From positions 1 to 19,350 of the forward strand of contig NZ_JAKEDR010000050.1 of NCBI RefSeq assembly GCF_023653455.1: a stretch of 19,350 bases of DNA, given 5' to 3'. The notes beneath the pieces were generated by a model. It was not told the DNA's origin. It saw only the letters and a list, made by a program, of their open reading frames with translations, and did no database searches. Source of the stretch: Paraclostridium ghonii. GTDB lineage: Bacteria > Bacillota > Clostridia > Peptostreptococcales > Peptostreptococcaceae. A program made the translations under genes and the position numbers. Shown one piece after another: positions 4,080 to 9,216 of this stretch; the stretch's first letter is position 1, and each line of letters begins with the position of its first letter.

Positions 4080-4973
4080 ATGAATTTAGTTTTAATATCT
4101 TTATTAGTACCAAGTGTGTATTTTTCTGCACGCTTTTTCTTGCTTTCCAAGAATATTAAAAAAGCAACTAATAATTTCAAATATATTTGTAAAAACACTG
4201 ACACAAATCGCAAACTTATATTAAGTTCACCAGATAAGAATTTGGAAGAATTGTTAGTTGAAATTAACAACTACTTAGAAGATGCGCAAATACAAAGGAT
4301 AAGATATATTAAAAGAGATGGAGAAATTAGAAAAGAAATTGAAAATATTTCTCATGATTTAAGAACACCATTAACTTCTATTCGTGGGTATTTAGATTTG
4401 ATAAATGATGAAACTAGTACAGAAGAAGAAAAGAATGATTATATTGAAATAGTAGAAAAAAGGTCAAAAGTTCTTCAAAACTTAATCCAAAGTTTTTACG
4501 ATTTGAGTAGACTTGAAAACAATGATTACAATATGAATATGGAAAATATAGATATTAATAAAAAGTTAAGAGATTATGTACTTACATTTTATAATGATTT
4601 TGAAAGTAAACATATTAATGTAGAAATAGATCTGCCTAAAAAACCAGTTTATGTAAACGTTGACAATAACGCTATTGAAAGGATTTTTTCAAATTTAATT
4701 CAAAATGCTATTAAGTATAGTAAAAGTAGTTTTTATATATATTTGAATAATAATCATGAAAATGTTATTATAGAATTTAAAAATGATATTCAAGATATTA
4801 ATAAAGAGGATACAGCTTTATTATTTAATAGATTTTACATGAAAGATAGTTCAAGGTGTGATGGAAGTTCAGGTCTAGGACTTACAGTTACAAAACTATT
4901 AGTTGAGTTGATGAATGGCGAAATTGAGGTGGATCTTGATGAAGATTGGATTATATTTAGAGTTAAATTTTAA
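4080..4973 (+). CDS. Sensor histidine kinase, one N-terminal membrane segment
   Basis: This 297-residue kinase is the sensor of the preceding regulator. A single hydrophobic N-terminal segment (about residues 3-23) anchors it, with no extracellular sensing domain. A helical linker (about 55-90) leads to the dimerisation box with phospho-acceptor His92 in ISHDLRTPLTSI. The ATPase domain has its N box around Asn209 (NLIQNAIKYSK) and G2 box GSSGLGL (262-268). The G1 box is degenerate, with an NDI stretch in place of DxGxG. Kinases with almost no outside domain that neighbour ABC transporters often sense antibiotic through the transporter or at the membrane surface; that is inference here. It starts at ATG 4080 behind GGAGTG, is last in the operon and is followed by a terminator. 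The order regulator, ATPase, permease, kinase leaves no doubt about the pairing. Confidence 0.88.
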   Translation: MNLVLISLLVPSVYFSARFFLLSKNIKKATNNFKYICKNTDTNRKLILSSPDKNLEELLVEINNYLEDAQIQRIRYIKRDGEIRKEIENISHDLRTPLTSIRGYLDLINDETSTEEEKNDYIEIVEKRSKVLQNLIQSFYDLSRLENNDYNMNMENIDINKKLRDYVLTFYNDFESKHINVEIDLPKKPVYVNVDNNAIERIFSNLIQNAIKYSKSSFYIYLNNNHENVIIEFKNDIQDINKEDTALLFNRFYMKDSSRCDGSSGLGLTVTKLLVELMNGEIEVDLDEDWIIFRVKF

Positions 4974-4981
4974 AAATATCC

Positions 4982-5014
4982 TCCCTAAGGTTAATATAGC
5001 TTTAGGGAATTTTA
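4982..5014 (+). terminator. Rho-independent terminator after the kinase gene
   Basis: TCCCTAAG (4982-4989) pairs with CTTTAGGGA (5000-5008), with one bulged base, across a ten-base loop. AATTTTATT follows. The T-run is short, so strength is uncertain. Confidence 0.7.
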
Positions 5015-5042
5015 TTGTATTTGTAAAAATATTTTGTTTAAA

Positions 5043-5069
5043 TTTACGAAAAAAGTATATTAATATAAT
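5043..5069 (+). promoter_or_regulatory. Possible promoter of the repeat-protein/MoxR/vWA operon
   Basis: A perfect TATAAT (5064-5069) lies 47 bases before the first start codon. The best upstream partner is TTTACG (5043-5048), with a short 15-base spacer. The -10 is convincing, the -35 weak, so an activator or alternative element may be involved. Confidence 0.45.
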
Positions 5070-5115
5070 GATAAAAAAATATATATAAAAACAATCATAT
5101 GGGAGAAGTCATGAT

Positions 5116-5919
5116 ATGGAAGCAGAAAAAGTTTTAAAAATGATAAGTAACAATCCTAATATTATATCAACTATAAGTAATCCAACAGATGAGATGAAGC
5201 TACTTGCTGTTAGTAAAAATGGACTTGTATTAGCACATATAGATAATCCAAGTATACAAATGCAAGAAATAGCTATAGAAAATAATATTAGGGCAATCAA
5301 ATATATAAAAAATCCAAGTGAATATATGATGATAAAAGCAGTAAATTCTGGATGGAGTATGTTAGATTATATAAAAAATCCAACTGATAAAGTTATTAAA
5401 TTAGCTTTAAATCAATCAGGATGGGCTATTCAGTATGTAAAAAATCCAAGTGAAGAATTGCAATTATTGGCAGTCAAAAAAGATTATGATTCAATAAAAT
5501 ATATAAAAAATCCTTATGAAAGTGTTCAAAAAGAAGCTGTTAAAAAAAACTATGGAGCATTAAAATATATAGACTCACCTATATATAGTGCACAGCTTAT
5601 AGCTATTAAAAGCAATGAAGCCGCTATTACTTTTATATCTGATTTAGACAAACATAAAATGTTAGAATTCTTAAAGGTAAATATTTTAGTTATCAAATAT
5701 ATTGCAAGGGAAATATCTAAAGATGAATTAGAAGGAGTACTTAAAGAAGCACTATCAAAAGAAGATGTTGAAGAAAAATATGTTAGAGACTTTTTAAATT
5801 GTTCTAATATAGATAGAAATAGTGATGATATACAAATTGACAAGGTAATGTTTATTTATAAATATGGAAGCAAAACATCAAAAAAAATAGCTGTAGATGA
5901 AAAATTAAAGATGATTTAG
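5116..5919 (+). CDS. Solenoid protein built of 22-residue repeats, function unknown
   Basis: This 267-residue soluble protein has no signal peptide or membrane segment. Residues 4-201 divide without gaps into nine units of exactly 22 residues, the last two the most diverged. The rough consensus places A-V/I at unit positions 6-7, A-I/L at 13-14 and Y-I-K-N-P-S/T-E/D at 16-22. Clear copies end in YIKNPSE, YIKNPTD, YVKNPSE and YIKNPYE. The pattern suggests stacked short helices with an Asn-Pro turn, a likely binding surface; it recalls DUF4116-like repeats, which I could not confirm. About 65 non-repetitive, charged residues form the C-terminus. It starts at ATG 5116 behind GGGAGA and lies 12 bases before the MoxR-type ATPase gene, so it is co-transcribed with it and probably acts with it as a recognition or adaptor subunit. 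No enzymatic motif is seen. Confidence 0.75.
   Translation: MEAEKVLKMISNNPNIISTISNPTDEMKLLAVSKNGLVLAHIDNPSIQMQEIAIENNIRAIKYIKNPSEYMMIKAVNSGWSMLDYIKNPTDKVIKLALNQSGWAIQYVKNPSEELQLLAVKKDYDSIKYIKNPYESVQKEAVKKNYGALKYIDSPIYSAQLIAIKSNEAAITFISDLDKHKMLEFLKVNILVIKYIAREISKDELEGVLKEALSKEDVEEKYVRDFLNCSNIDRNSDDIQIDKVMFIYKYGSKTSKKIAVDEKLKMI
5125..5718 (+). repeat. In-frame 66-bp coding repeats (nine units)
   Basis: The 22-residue units of the solenoid protein correspond to a 66-bp period. DNA conservation is best around the AATCCAAGTGAA-like segments encoding NPSE, which recur near 5311, 5377 and 5443 at 66-base intervals. Units are diverged enough that recent slippage is unlikely, but unit number could still vary between strains. 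Confidence 0.7.
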
Positions 5920-5931
5920 GAGTGAGACATT

Positions 5932-7062
5932 ATGAATTTTATAGATACATTAAAGAGTGCTGAATTAGTATTAGCTACAGGAGAAGTACCTTTAGTAGTT
6001 GGAGAAAGTGGTATAGGAAAAACAGCTTTAGCAAAAAAACTAGCTAAAGAAAATAATTGGAGCTTAGTTGTTGTTGATGGGAACTTACTTAAGGAAGGGG
6101 AAATAGGAGGACTTCCAACTGTAGAATCTTATTTGGTTCCAAGCTCAAATGGAGAAAATATAGAAAAGAAAACTACAATATATGCAGTTCACCATAAGTT
6201 AAGAGAAATTGATGAAGAAATATCCAAAGGAAAAACAATTCTTTTATTTATAGATGAGATAAATAGATGTGAACATACGGTACAACAGGAACTTATGAAT
6301 TTAATATTAAATAGAGAAATAAATGGATATAAGTTAAATGATGATGTGAAAATTTTAGCGGCAATGAATCCATCCAGTAAATATGGTTCAGATTTTGACT
6401 ATCAGGTTGTAGATATGGATGCAGCTCAAGAAAACAGATTTGTATGGCTAAATATGGAGCCAGATCATACACAATGGATAAACTGGGCTATACATGAAGG
6501 ACTTGAAGAAAAAGTTATAGAGTTTATTTCAACTTTCCCAGAATACCTACACAAAACAAATGAGGATGATGTTAGAGCAACTCCTAGAAGTTATGAAAGA
6601 GTTTCTAAAAGTTATACTATATATAAAAATCAAAAAGATTCAATACCAAGAGCTGTGTTTTTAAATGTTATAAAAGGAAATGTTGGTAAAGTTATAGGAG
6701 AAGAATTTATAAGTTTTGTTGAATCAAATTGCAGACCATTAATATCCTATGAAGATGTTTTTTCAGGAGAAAAATTAAGTTCACATGTTATAGAAAAAGT
6801 AAAAAATGAAAGTCATACAAGATTATATATATCTGCAATGAATATTTTAAAAACATTAGAATTAAATGTAAAAGATGATAAGAATGATTTAAAATATTGT
6901 ATTGATAGATTTATTAAATTTTTAAGATTATATCCGATAGATTTAATGGTTGGAATTATGAAGGATATAAAAAGTAGTTACAATAAAGTGTATAAAGTAG
7001 CTATTGAAAATGAAGAATTCGTAGAGTTGTATTTTGAATCTTATAGTTTAATAAGGGGATAA
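5932..7062 (+). CDS. MoxR-type AAA+ ATPase
   Basis: This 376-residue AAA+ ATPase of the dynein-related AAA_5/MoxR type probably acts as a cytoplasmic ring-forming remodeller. Walker A is GESGIGKT at residues 24-31, Walker B LLFIDE at 104-109, sensor 1 is Asn146 in AAMNPSS, an arginine-finger-like ENRF sits at 167-170, and TPRSYERV is a sensor-2-like region. About 180 residues of helical C-terminal domain follow. MoxR ATPases usually work with a vWA-domain partner, and the next gene, five bases downstream, encodes exactly that. It starts at ATG 5932, behind AGGAGTGAGAC, 12 bases after the repeat-protein gene. The pair is common in bacteria, but its substrate is generally unknown. Roles proposed for the class include cofactor insertion, complex assembly and conflict (defence) systems; none can be chosen from the sequence. 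Confidence 0.85.
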   Translation: MNFIDTLKSAELVLATGEVPLVVGESGIGKTALAKKLAKENNWSLVVVDGNLLKEGEIGGLPTVESYLVPSSNGENIEKKTTIYAVHHKLREIDEEISKGKTILLFIDEINRCEHTVQQELMNLILNREINGYKLNDDVKILAAMNPSSKYGSDFDYQVVDMDAAQENRFVWLNMEPDHTQWINWAIHEGLEEKVIEFISTFPEYLHKTNEDDVRATPRSYERVSKSYTIYKNQKDSIPRAVFLNVIKGNVGKVIGEEFISFVESNCRPLISYEDVFSGEKLSSHVIEKVKNESHTRLYISAMNILKTLELNVKDDKNDLKYCIDRFIKFLRLYPIDLMVGIMKDIKSSYNKVYKVAIENEEFVELYFESYSLIRG

Positions 7063-7067
7063 AATAT

Positions 7068-8477
7068 ATGGAAAGTTATTTTGAAAAACAAATAAAAAAT
7101 CTATTTGACAAAGCAAACGAAATAATTAATCACTATTATATGCTAAAAGCTAATCGAAAAGGTGAAAAAATTGAGATAGATATACCTCAAGATTTTAAAA
7201 ATGAATTTTTTAGTCTTGTAGATAAAGTAAGTTTAAGTCTTATGGAAGACAATGATAATTTTTATGGATATTTTCTATTTCAAATGGGAAGAGAAATAAA
7301 GTTTGATATAAATAGTCCTACTGCTGTTAACTTTAAAGGAGCAAAGTATTTTATATATTTTAATCCATTAATATTTTTGAATCTTAATATGAGACAAATG
7401 GAAAGTGCAGTTAAGCATGAAATTCTTCATGTAGTATCTATGCACTTGTTAAGAGCAAAAAAACTACAAGGTAATTATAGTACATTAGCTATAAATATGG
7501 CAATGGATATAGTAGTAAATAAGTTTTTAAATAATTTACCACCATATGCTACTACCCTAGAATCAGTAAATGTAAAGTATTCTTTAAAACTTGAACCATA
7601 TGAGACGTTTGAATATTACATAGAAAATATTCAAACTGAATTAAATTTAATGGAAAAAGATGAAGAAGGGGAAGAGGATGATAGCAATAAAAATGAAGGT
7701 ATAGAAACTAAATATAATCAAGAACACACTCATGACATATGGGAAGAATCAGATGATATAGATGAAAAGACTTTTAAAGAATTCACTGAAAAGTTTGTTA
7801 ATAATTCTCAAAAAGGAAAAATTCCAGACTATTTAGACGATATTATATCAGTACTCAAAAACAGTAAAGGAGAAATACCTTGGAATTTATATCTTAAAAA
7901 GCTAATGGGAACAGTTGAAAGTAATAAAAAGAAAACTATAACAAGAAGAAATAGAAGACAACCCAATAGGCTGGATTTAAGAGGTGAACTTAGAAATCAC
8001 AAAGCAGAAATAGCAGTTGCACTTGATATAAGTGGAAGTATTAGCGATGAAGAATTTAAGCAAGCTATTAAAGAAGTACTTAATATAGTAAAAAATTATA
8101 ATCAAGAAATTACTATTATAGAATGTGATAATGAAATTAAACGAGTGTATAAAGTTAAGTCTGAAAAGGATATAAAAGATAGGCTTGAAATAAGGGGTGG
8201 AACTAAATTTTCACCAGTATTTAATTATGCTAACAATAAAAAAATTAACTTGTTAGTTTACTTCACGGATGGAAAAGGAGAAGATAGATTACAAGTAGTT
8301 CCTAGAGGCTATAAAATTTTGTGGGTTATTTCAGGAAGAGGAGATAAACTTTCATTAAAAGAATCTTATGGAGCAGTTAAAAAACTAAGTAAGGTTAAAA
8401 TAAAAGAAGATACATTAAATATGAGTGATGTTAGAGATGATGGATACTCAATGAATAATCAAGCTCCAATTCTATAA
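7068..8477 (+). CDS. DUF2201-like putative metallopeptidase with C-terminal vWA domain
   Basis: This 469-residue cytoplasmic protein has two parts. The N-terminal half is a putative metallopeptidase-like domain with HEILH at residues 117-121 and a downstream helix NMAMDIVVN (143-151) that could supply a further metal ligand. A very acidic linker follows (about 195-235). The C-terminal vWA-like domain starts near 313 with a MIDAS motif DISGS (320-324), Thr379 in RGGTKFSP and Asp401 in YFTDGKGED, so metal-binding residues are kept. A basic KKKTITRRNRRQ stretch (287-298) precedes the vWA domain. This layout matches the DUF2201/COG3864 group usually paired with a MoxR ATPase. It starts at ATG 7068, five bases after the ATPase stop codon, and ends the operon. 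Peptidase activity is inferred from the HExxH motif alone. The vWA domain is the probable docking site for the ATPase. Confidence 0.85.
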   Translation: MESYFEKQIKNLFDKANEIINHYYMLKANRKGEKIEIDIPQDFKNEFFSLVDKVSLSLMEDNDNFYGYFLFQMGREIKFDINSPTAVNFKGAKYFIYFNPLIFLNLNMRQMESAVKHEILHVVSMHLLRAKKLQGNYSTLAINMAMDIVVNKFLNNLPPYATTLESVNVKYSLKLEPYETFEYYIENIQTELNLMEKDEEGEEDDSNKNEGIETKYNQEHTHDIWEESDDIDEKTFKEFTEKFVNNSQKGKIPDYLDDIISVLKNSKGEIPWNLYLKKLMGTVESNKKKTITRRNRRQPNRLDLRGELRNHKAEIAVALDISGSISDEEFKQAIKEVLNIVKNYNQEITIIECDNEIKRVYKVKSEKDIKDRLEIRGGTKFSPVFNYANNKKINLLVYFTDGKGEDRLQVVPRGYKILWVISGRGDKLSLKESYGAVKKLSKVKIKEDTLNMSDVRDDGYSMNNQAPIL

Positions 8478-8534
8478 AGTTTTTGAAATAAAATTATTCA
8501 TGTATAACAGTAGATTGATTTTAGATTATAATGT

Positions 8535-8600
8535 AAACTGCCTTAAAATTTAAGCTAAAAAATTCGCTATTTTATCAACTTAAATTTTGAGGTAGTTTTT
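8535..8600. terminator. Bidirectional terminator between the vWA gene and tetR-family gene
   Basis: AAACTGCCTTAAAATTTAAG (8535-8554) pairs with CTTAAATTTTGAGGTAGTTTTT (8579-8600), with G-T or mismatch at two places, across a 24-base loop. T-runs follow in both directions, suiting two convergent transcripts. The 57 bases between the vWA stop codon and the stem hold nothing else recognisable. Confidence 0.8.
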
Positions 8601-8601
8601 A

Positions 8602-9216
8602 TTATATATTTTCTTTAAGATTATTAATAACTTCAGGAATTACTTTTTTTAATAATAACTCATAAACCTCTATAATATCTGAATTATTAGCAGTATTAAC
8701 TCCTATTAAACTTTGTAATATAAGTCCATCTATGGTAGCTAATAAAACAGAACTTAAAGCATTTACTTTAGATAGAGGAATATCTTTATAGGTTAAGGGC
8801 AATAGTTTTGCAACATCAACTATCCATGTATTATATTTATCTATCATTTTATTTTTAATTTCTTCATTTCCTTCGATTCCTAAAACAGTTAAGTATAATT
8901 GTATTTTATTTTCGGATTCTTTTTCAAATCTATCAACAAAACATTCCAATACATTATCTAAAATATCAGAATTCATATATTCAAACTTTACATTTTTATC
9001 ATTACTGTATTCCTTTAAAATTTTATGAGACTCATTAAGTGATATATCCATTACTTCATATAGTATTTCTTCCTTATTTTTATAATGATGGTATATAGCA
9101 CCAGTGGTTACACCTGCAGATTTGCTTATTTCTCTTACTGATGCATGCTGGATTCCTTTTTCACTTATTAATTGTTTTGCAGATTGTAAAATTCTTTCTT
9201 TTCCTTTAAGATTCAA
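8602..9216 (-). CDS. TetR-family transcriptional regulator
   Basis: This 204-residue ligand-responsive repressor has an N-terminal helix-turn-helix at about residues 26-46 (SVREISKSAGVTTGAIYHHY, followed by KNKEEIL), the TetR hallmark. The C-terminal ligand domain is variable and gives no ligand identity. The start is a TTG at 9216 with AGGGTG upstream at a suitable distance. No ATG offers a complete N-terminal helix. The gene is divergent from the membrane-protein/oxidoreductase operon. The shared 214-base gap has near-consensus promoters in both directions, each overlapped by a palindrome, so it probably represses that operon and perhaps itself. The gene ends two bases from the bidirectional terminator. 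Regulation of the neighbour is inferred from arrangement. Confidence 0.88.
   Translation of the reverse strand: MNLKGKERILQSAKQLISEKGIQHASVREISKSAGVTTGAIYHHYKNKEEILYEVMDISLNESHKILKEYSNDKNVKFEYMNSDILDNVLECFVDRFEKESENKIQLYLTVLGIEGNEEIKNKMIDKYNTWIVDVAKLLPLTYKDIPLSKVNALSSVLLATIDGLILQSLIGVNTANNSDIIEVYELLLKKVIPEVINNLKENI

Follow-up and report, generated by a model that had tools for sequence, protein, structure and literature searches.

Ring-type AAA+ ATPases of the MoxR family that act with proteins carrying a von Willebrand factor A (vWA) domain have been described as the core of ternary conflict systems, which use VMAP, iSTAND, FtsH or beta-propeller components and occur mainly in multicellular bacteria (PMC7159879). 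A closer counterpart is the pair of an ATPase and a zincin-vWA protein already described in group 2.2 jumbo phages, for which a role in virion assembly has been proposed (PMC7824862). The 19,350-nucleotide stretch of Paraclostridium ghonii contig NZ_JAKEDR010000050.1 analysed here (the window) carries an operon of three genes, which encode a helical-repeat protein made of DUF4116 repeats (REP), a ring-type MoxR-like AAA+ ATPase, and a zinc-peptidase/docking protein in which a zincin domain is fused to a vWA domain (VWA). The original prediction, made from the sequence alone, had not recognised this combination as described; this stands for the full three-gene operon, on which no paper was found in the open-licence literature and which is undescribed as far as that literature shows, but not for its core, since the ATPase/zincin-vWA pair is the one known from jumbo phages. 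Our reading, to which we give a probability of about one half, is that the operon encodes a single ATP-driven remodelling or processing machine, with the DUF4116 solenoid as its dedicated client-binding or docking subunit.

Linkage and distribution of the three genes

Two sets of genomes were compared, 71 from the window's own family (f1) and 206 from a second family (f45), 277 together; from their named relatives, these families would be the Peptostreptococcaceae and the Clostridiaceae. Orthologues of REP and VWA occur together in 189 of the 277 genomes (about two thirds), VWA occurs alone in three, REP alone in one, and neither is found in 84. Within f1, VWA is present in 43 of 71 genomes and REP in 42, these being the same genomes except for one (G018) with an 82-residue stretch of VWA and no REP. 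VWA is present in 149 of the 206 f45 genomes and REP in 148, with both in 147; the exceptions are two genomes with VWA only (G533, where the match begins 1.4 kb from the start of a contig, and G617) and a 78% complete genome with REP only (G621). Almost all REP matches in f45 (146/150) share the strand of VWA and sit 1.1–2.1 kb 5' of it (median 1192), and the remaining four comprise two on different contigs (G491, G532), that of G621, and one whose VWA row is not listed (G622). When the genome contigs were queried with REP alone, 20 loci were returned, and all 20 have ATPase and VWA sequences directly downstream, the ATPase gene being interrupted or split in two of them (L009, L010).

The same association holds at greater distance. 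In a class-level sample of 391 genomes, a REP orthologue (E < 1e-80) and a close VWA orthologue (E < 1e-150) were each found in 11, and these are the same genomes. Queries with large-phage VWA proteins matched ten of 378 phylum-level genomes: one is that of the window, six belong to two further families and all have the gene order REP–ATPase–VWA, and three are weaker matches, beside which REP was not seen, one of these contigs ending inside the ATPase gene. At every locus in which both were seen on one contig, REP precedes the ATPase/VWA pair. At one of the six loci (L223:7353-8903), the ATPase and VWA genes are separated by a 516-residue open reading frame (ORF) of the same strand that by eye resembles a transposase.

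Most genomes with the module carry a single copy. In two genomes of genus g258 (G586, G587), REP and VWA are each present as two long copies, one window-like and the other more distant. Pairwise distances among the three proteins, taken over 24 taxa, are closely correlated (Mantel coefficients of 0.943 for REP–ATPase, 0.942 for REP–VWA and 0.964 for ATPase–VWA, with 0/999 permutations as high), and by this measure of sequence divergence the three proteins co-evolve; the mean distance is 0.437 for REP, 0.415 for VWA and 0.335 for the ATPase. The flanks vary, as no family besides the module's three is found near more than 4 of the 20 loci. Two rows labelled Clostridium (L011, L016) and two further families (f89, f144) group with Peptostreptococcaceae rows in the trees, so that transfers of the whole module between families are possible. 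The original prediction had conceded that the repeat gene might be linked to the ATPase pair in this strain only, which is clearly not the case: the three-part module of AAA+ ATPase, metallopeptidase/vWA protein and solenoid is found far beyond this strain, in several families, and the counts given above bear out the conserved co-occurrence.

A role in sporulation was also considered, suggested by f1, in which VWA is present in 43 of 54 SpoIVA-positive and 0 of 17 SpoIVA-negative genomes; it was rejected by f45, in which VWA is present in 11 of 12 SpoIVA-negative genomes, including 8 of 9 with a completeness of 80% or more.

The three proteins and the limits of the operon

The REP protein belongs to the DUF4116 family (PF13475; E 5.2e-12, 45.6 bits, cut-off 24.9), which has been modelled as an alpha-solenoid (PMC8078820). 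Its self-match is highest at a lag of 22 residues and next highest at 44, with 0/300 shuffles as high. Its full repeat units (Table 1) are preceded by a 9-residue half-unit (aa 13–21) and followed by a degenerate unit (aa 176–197); the nine-unit solenoid first proposed is reached only by counting both of these, the full units being seven. No enzymatic or cofactor motif was found in REP, and only the DUF4116 repeats exceed a Pfam cut-off. The two repeats at aa 88–131 are the best conserved (mean entropy 0.80 and 0.64 bits, versus 0.93–1.41 in the remaining repeats) and the last 30 residues are fairly conserved too (0.85 bits), a pattern that suggests one constant partner. A variable repeat number is not seen among the 150 f45 matches, of which 130 begin before residue 22; the other 20, which begin at residue 22–52, have apparently lost N-terminal repeats or have a broken start. 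Other DUF4116 genes, judged from the REP protein search, were seen in genus g4, probably Clostridioides, where each genome (G004–G011; 3.9–4.8 Mb) has 10–11 further DUF4116-type stretches in about three longer ORFs outside the operon; within f1 beyond g4, only two genomes (G069, G070) hold such stretches. A C. difficile DUF4116 protein has been named for an amyloid motif, and is unrelated to the operon as far as the available part of that paper goes (PMC13119156).

The ATPase scores above the Pfam cut-offs for AAA_5 (34.8 bits, cut-off 22) and AAA (36.4 bits, cut-off 21.2), which gives it an ATPase core, but reaches only 20.0 bits of the 27 needed for AAA_3, which we take to be the MoxR model. 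The MoxR label of the original prediction is therefore softened here to MoxR-like; membership of the MoxR family is nevertheless likely from sequence, and the adjoining gene for a vWA partner, a trait of that family, is present. The Walker motifs are complete, as had been predicted, with their key residues invariant in 18 aligned rows. At L009:8933-11534 (Peptostreptococcaceae bacterium VA2), the ATPase gene contains a group II intron (Rfam RF00029, RF02004) that carries a reverse-transcriptase/HNH-type ORF, and in two large viral contigs (L104:2224-4553, L108:4236-5673) the ATPase is split after about residue 60–65, near the intron point of L009; the conserved KEGEIGGLP segment of the ATPase is possibly an insertion hot spot. 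At L010:3002-4128, the ATPase frame is broken around residue 69 by a frameshift or a sequencing error.

The VWA protein matches both DUF2201 models, PF13203 with 38.4 bits (cut-off 23.2) and PF09967 with 64.9 bits (cut-off 26.4), in agreement with the identity first assigned to it. The HEILH motif and the intact metal ion-dependent adhesion site (MIDAS) noted at the outset are also confirmed: the ten-residue zinc motif and the MIDAS residues (D320xS322xS324/T379/D401) are invariant in 18/18 rows of alignment A2 (window included), and in a wider alignment H117, E118, H121, H126, D147, D320, S322, S324, T379 and D401 are invariant in 16/16 module rows and in 8/8 rows of a large-phage group, six of them from genomes or contigs of 251–320 kb and two from contigs of about 98 kb. 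With its HExxHxxxxH motif intact, VWA is predicted to be a zinc peptidase. Its closest named relative, at 93% identity, comes from Paraclostridium ghonii, and the named matches include Clostridioides difficile.

All three ORFs are intact and lie on the plus strand, with intergenic gaps of 12 and 5 bases; the tight spacing in the original prediction is exact in coordinates, strand and gaps. A stem-loop separates the operon from the upstream histidine-kinase gene, and the region 4950–8700 contains three terminator-like sites against a shuffle mean of 0.4. The conserved leader element is a probable promoter region, to judge from the aligned leaders: among the 17, AAAAAGTATATTAA is exact in 11 (window included) and replaced by AAAAAGTATTATAA in three (L011–L013), and the element is unrecognisable in three (L014–L016). 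A pattern scan of the window's own genome, with one base more between the halves than in the window's own copy, gave 170 forward and 190 reverse matches versus 124 and 173 for a reversed control; it revealed no leader regulon and gave no basis for assigning a sigma factor. The hairpin downstream of VWA is probably a terminator shared with a converging TetR gene.

Table 1. Features of the operon and its borders, in window coordinates
Feature	Position	Strand	Basis
Terminator-like stem-loop, 3' of upstream histidine-kinase gene	4982..5008	+	12-pair stem
Conserved leader element TGTTTAAATT..AAAAAGTATATTAA..TATAAT	5035..5069	+	comparison of 17 upstream regions
REP, DUF4116 22-residue-repeat solenoid protein, 267 aa	5116..5919	+	Pfam match, repeat self-match
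Seven full 22-residue repeats of REP, aa 22–175	5179..5640	+	per-repeat entropies
MoxR-like AAA+ ATPase, 376 aa	5932..7062	+	Pfam; phrog_1297 E 1.7e-57
Walker A GESGIGKT, aa 24–31	6001..6024	+	G24, S26, G27, G29, K30, T31 invariant in 18 rows
Walker B LLFIDE, aa 104–109	6241..6258	+	L105 to E109 invariant in 18 rows
VWA, zincin-type metallopeptidase domain fused to vWA (DUF2201_N + DUF2201), 469 aa	7068..8477	+	phrog_1314 E 3.4e-60
Zinc-binding motif HEILHVVSMH (HExxHxxxxH)	7416..7445	+	alignments
MIDAS motif DISGS, aa 320–324, completed by T379 and D401	8025..8039	+	alignments
Hairpin with 20-pair helix, T-rich 3' side	8530..8603	+	-24.1 kcal/mol, z -6.5, 0/200 shuffles equally stable

Relation to phages

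In PHROGs, the ATPase falls into phrog_1297 and VWA into phrog_1314, and the pair is common in phages: at E 1e-5, tblastn matches to VWA come from 204 phage records and those to the ATPase from 484, and 58 of 68 VWA loci in IMG/VR have an ATPase match inside 6 kb on either side. In PA5oct, VWA is not annotated beside the ATPase. REP itself has no relative among 36 pattern matches in viral contigs; DUF4116-type proteins occur in 6 phage records, and in SCTP-2 no pair is annotated beside one in the 16.5 kb opened.

The trees support the homology of the module's ATPase and zincin-vWA proteins to those of jumbo phages, represented here by AR9, PBS1, BpSp and IMG/VR contigs, which may belong to group 2.2 of PMC7824862. 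In the ATPase tree, the module groups with AR9, BpSp, six IMG/VR contigs and one row from a metagenome-assembled genome (MAG; L085), with support of 99/99 and 99/98, and in the vWA tree the grouping of module and large phages, which includes MAG rows L085 and L086, has support of 94/95 and an SH-aLRT value of 99. The nearest sampled relatives of the module outside clostridia are thus large phages of the PBS1/AR9 kind, as placed by trees in which the other bacterial rows were drawn solely from the sampled genomes of the module's own phylum. A topology that unites the vWA rows of all phages and of the module to the exclusion of other bacteria was rejected (p-AU 5.9e-7). A phage origin of the module was also considered, but of this only the large-phage grouping is supported and a direction is not, the phage rows forming no single sister clade in the first vWA tree.

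The placement of the pair in phage genomes bears on its task. In AR9, its genes stand behind an annotated early promoter in the neighbourhood of gyrB. The gp24–gp25 genes of N4 are core genes of N4-like phages and appear in middle transcripts (PMC4193335); in two other Schitoviridae the pair is close to helicase and DNA polymerase genes, and in N4 it lies several genes upstream of them. Together, the early promoter, the middle transcripts and the replication-gene neighbours make an early or middle infection task somewhat better suited to these phages than virion assembly, although virion proteins are encoded near the gp24–gp25 homologues of one phage (PMC4193335). 'HNH endonuclease' is the label given to the zincin-vWA family by PHROGs (phrog_1314) and by many phage records, among them NC_008720 (gp25), NC_031039 and others of RefSeq; in Pfam, the VWA proteins of the window and of AR9 match DUF2201_N and DUF2201 and no HNH model, and the label is likely a propagated misannotation.

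Pairs with other 5' genes were also seen. At L196:709-6319, a 221-residue protein whose 23-residue repeats are weak is encoded 5' of a divergent pair, with a restriction-type helicase (EcoEI_R_C) to one side and an HNH gene to the other. A lag of 23 is the best in this protein but lies within the range of shuffles (55/300 for the whole protein, 45/300 for the segment), and only its match to phrog_3532 (E 1.5e-7) backs a repeat or a phage kinship. In two other genomes of the same class (L199:8205-11774, L204:1379-5170), a large helicase gene of the SNF2/ResIII type stands immediately 5' of the pair, and the adjoining gene ends overlap. We tentatively consider, as a possibility that falls well short of probable, that the core has been exchanged between clostridia and large phages and represents a class of bacterial AAA+ protease not described before. 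It would be a general motor that can take different targeting subunits in the 5' slot (the repeat protein of L196, the SNF2-type helicases of L199 and L204); bacteria would have gained the DUF4116 protein as a client-fixing subunit, and phages would have retained the pair alone, for tasks early or midway in infection.

A proposed machine, its alternatives and known systems

The reading of the operon as one machine is favoured because the three genes are so closely linked, their products co-evolve by the Mantel comparison, the zinc, MIDAS and Walker residues are invariant, REP and VWA are doubled jointly in G586 and G587, and the repeats at aa 88–131 of REP are conserved. In the proposed mechanism, the MoxR-like ATPase would form a ring, as its family suggests, and would work with the vWA co-chaperone that bears the zinc-peptidase domain. 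REP would be a dedicated third subunit of this complex, which either binds one constant client or docks a client on the vWA MIDAS, making its contacts through the central repeats and the conserved C-terminal segment. ATP hydrolysis would then remodel the captured client, and the zincin domain would cleave or trim it, presumably in the service of cell maintenance rather than conflict. The adaptor, remodeller and effector roles first assigned to REP, the ATPase and VWA are likewise putative.

Several observations weigh against such a machine. The module is absent from 84 of the 277 genomes. REP is next to the viral pair in 0/68 IMG/VR loci (6 kb on either side), so that the core can function in its absence, and in some phages, such as Vibrio phage Va1, the sequences for ATPase and VWA lie at a distance from one another. 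No solved structure is related by sequence to REP or VWA. In 14 other bacterial rows of VWA, the catalytic E118 is kept in five, replaced by another residue in eight and lost to a gap in one, and the zinc ligands are retained across the same rows (with one gap at H117), which argues that the wider family can manage in the absence of peptidase activity.

The last of these points leads to a different division of labour. The NorQ/NorD and CbbQ/CbbO pairs activate or load a metal-containing client, and the present pair may likewise be an assembly or metal-loading chaperone rather than a protease, its zinc site being structural or a metal relay and its client being presented by REP. That the zinc-binding residues H117, H121, H126 and D147 are retained more widely than E118 would fit this role, as would the assistance given to complex assembly by documented MoxR-vWA pairs (PMC7159879); a purely structural site, however, would not require E118, which is present in 24/24 rows of module bacteria and the related large-phage group and in 26/27 other phage rows, and no metalloenzyme gene is a conserved neighbour. 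We consider a chaperone of this kind unlikely, if still with some claim to attention. The neighbouring gene is the client in several MoxR-vWA operons, and REP, 5' of the pair wherever both were seen on one contig and found without a VWA match in just one of the 277 genomes (G621), may be a solenoid that the pair matures or remodels and whose own role lies elsewhere. Against this, REP is devoid of enzymatic or cofactor motifs, and phages that keep the pair without REP would need other clients; we regard it as rather improbable.

The original prediction had inclined to a nucleoside triphosphate-dependent conflict (defence) system. In such a system, REP would recognise an invader, the AAA+/vWA pair would set the threshold and the zincin domain would be the effector. 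The layout does resemble the MoxR-vWA ternary systems (PMC7159879), phages carry the core pair, restriction-type helicase and HNH genes flank the divergent pair of L196, and single neighbour genes at the 20 module loci match JetB, JetC, ShosA, ZorB and a type IV restriction enzyme in PADLOC. These matches are isolated, however: in raw counts over 71 of the 75 neighbouring genes, none of the families listed (25 of 37 matching) is found in more than two and a defence neighbourhood is not evident, and the Pfam families listed for the variable flanks (25 of 143) are mostly metabolic, transport or regulatory. The three proteins themselves have no good PADLOC match (best E 0.0014), and REP is barely more variable than VWA, unlike a fast-evolving sensor. 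The near-constant solenoid length, the mostly single copy, the one fixed and co-inherited architecture and the lack of conserved neighbours disfavour a defence role, which we place last among these readings, as improbable.

Should the favoured reading of an adaptor-guided zinc peptidase be correct, bacterial cell maintenance would gain a further class of protease, and the pairs found in phages, which include core genes of N4-like phages (PMC4193335), could be understood from the bacterial one. The operon is widespread in two clostridial families, with C. difficile among the VWA matches, yet no paper on it was found in the open-licence literature; because the three genes are so strongly linked, the question lends itself to direct testing.

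Among known systems, RavA–ViaA, CbbQ–CbbO, NorQ–NorD and GvpN resemble the module in combining an AAA+ protein with a vWA partner that acts on a client; to our knowledge none of them has a zincin domain or a DUF4116 partner, and the GvpN model reaches only 13.9 bits of its 266.8-bit cut-off in the profile scan. In N4, gp24 matches the ATPase profile (52 bits) and gp25 the VWA profile (36 bits), and gp25 retains HExxH and DxSxS, but the relationship is distant, no solenoid adjoins the pair, and the REP profile matches neither protein. The jumbo-phage pair is closer, with the same two-protein core, the same domain order and complete catalytic and metal residues in 8/8 rows, and differs in the DUF4116 gene, which is missing from 68/68 viral loci. 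The ternary conflict systems share with the module the plan of an AAA+ MoxR protein, a vWA protein and a third component. A VMAP, inactive STAND, FtsH or beta-propeller fusion was not found as third part in the Pfam scan, which does not include VMAP profiles as such, a propeller or FtsH part is likewise missing from the ATPase and VWA, and no variable effector domains were seen at the module loci aligned or opened. Whereas the conflict systems are built around diversifying effectors, the clostridial module keeps a single architecture in which the third part is a DUF4116 solenoid and the peptidase lies N-terminal to the vWA domain.

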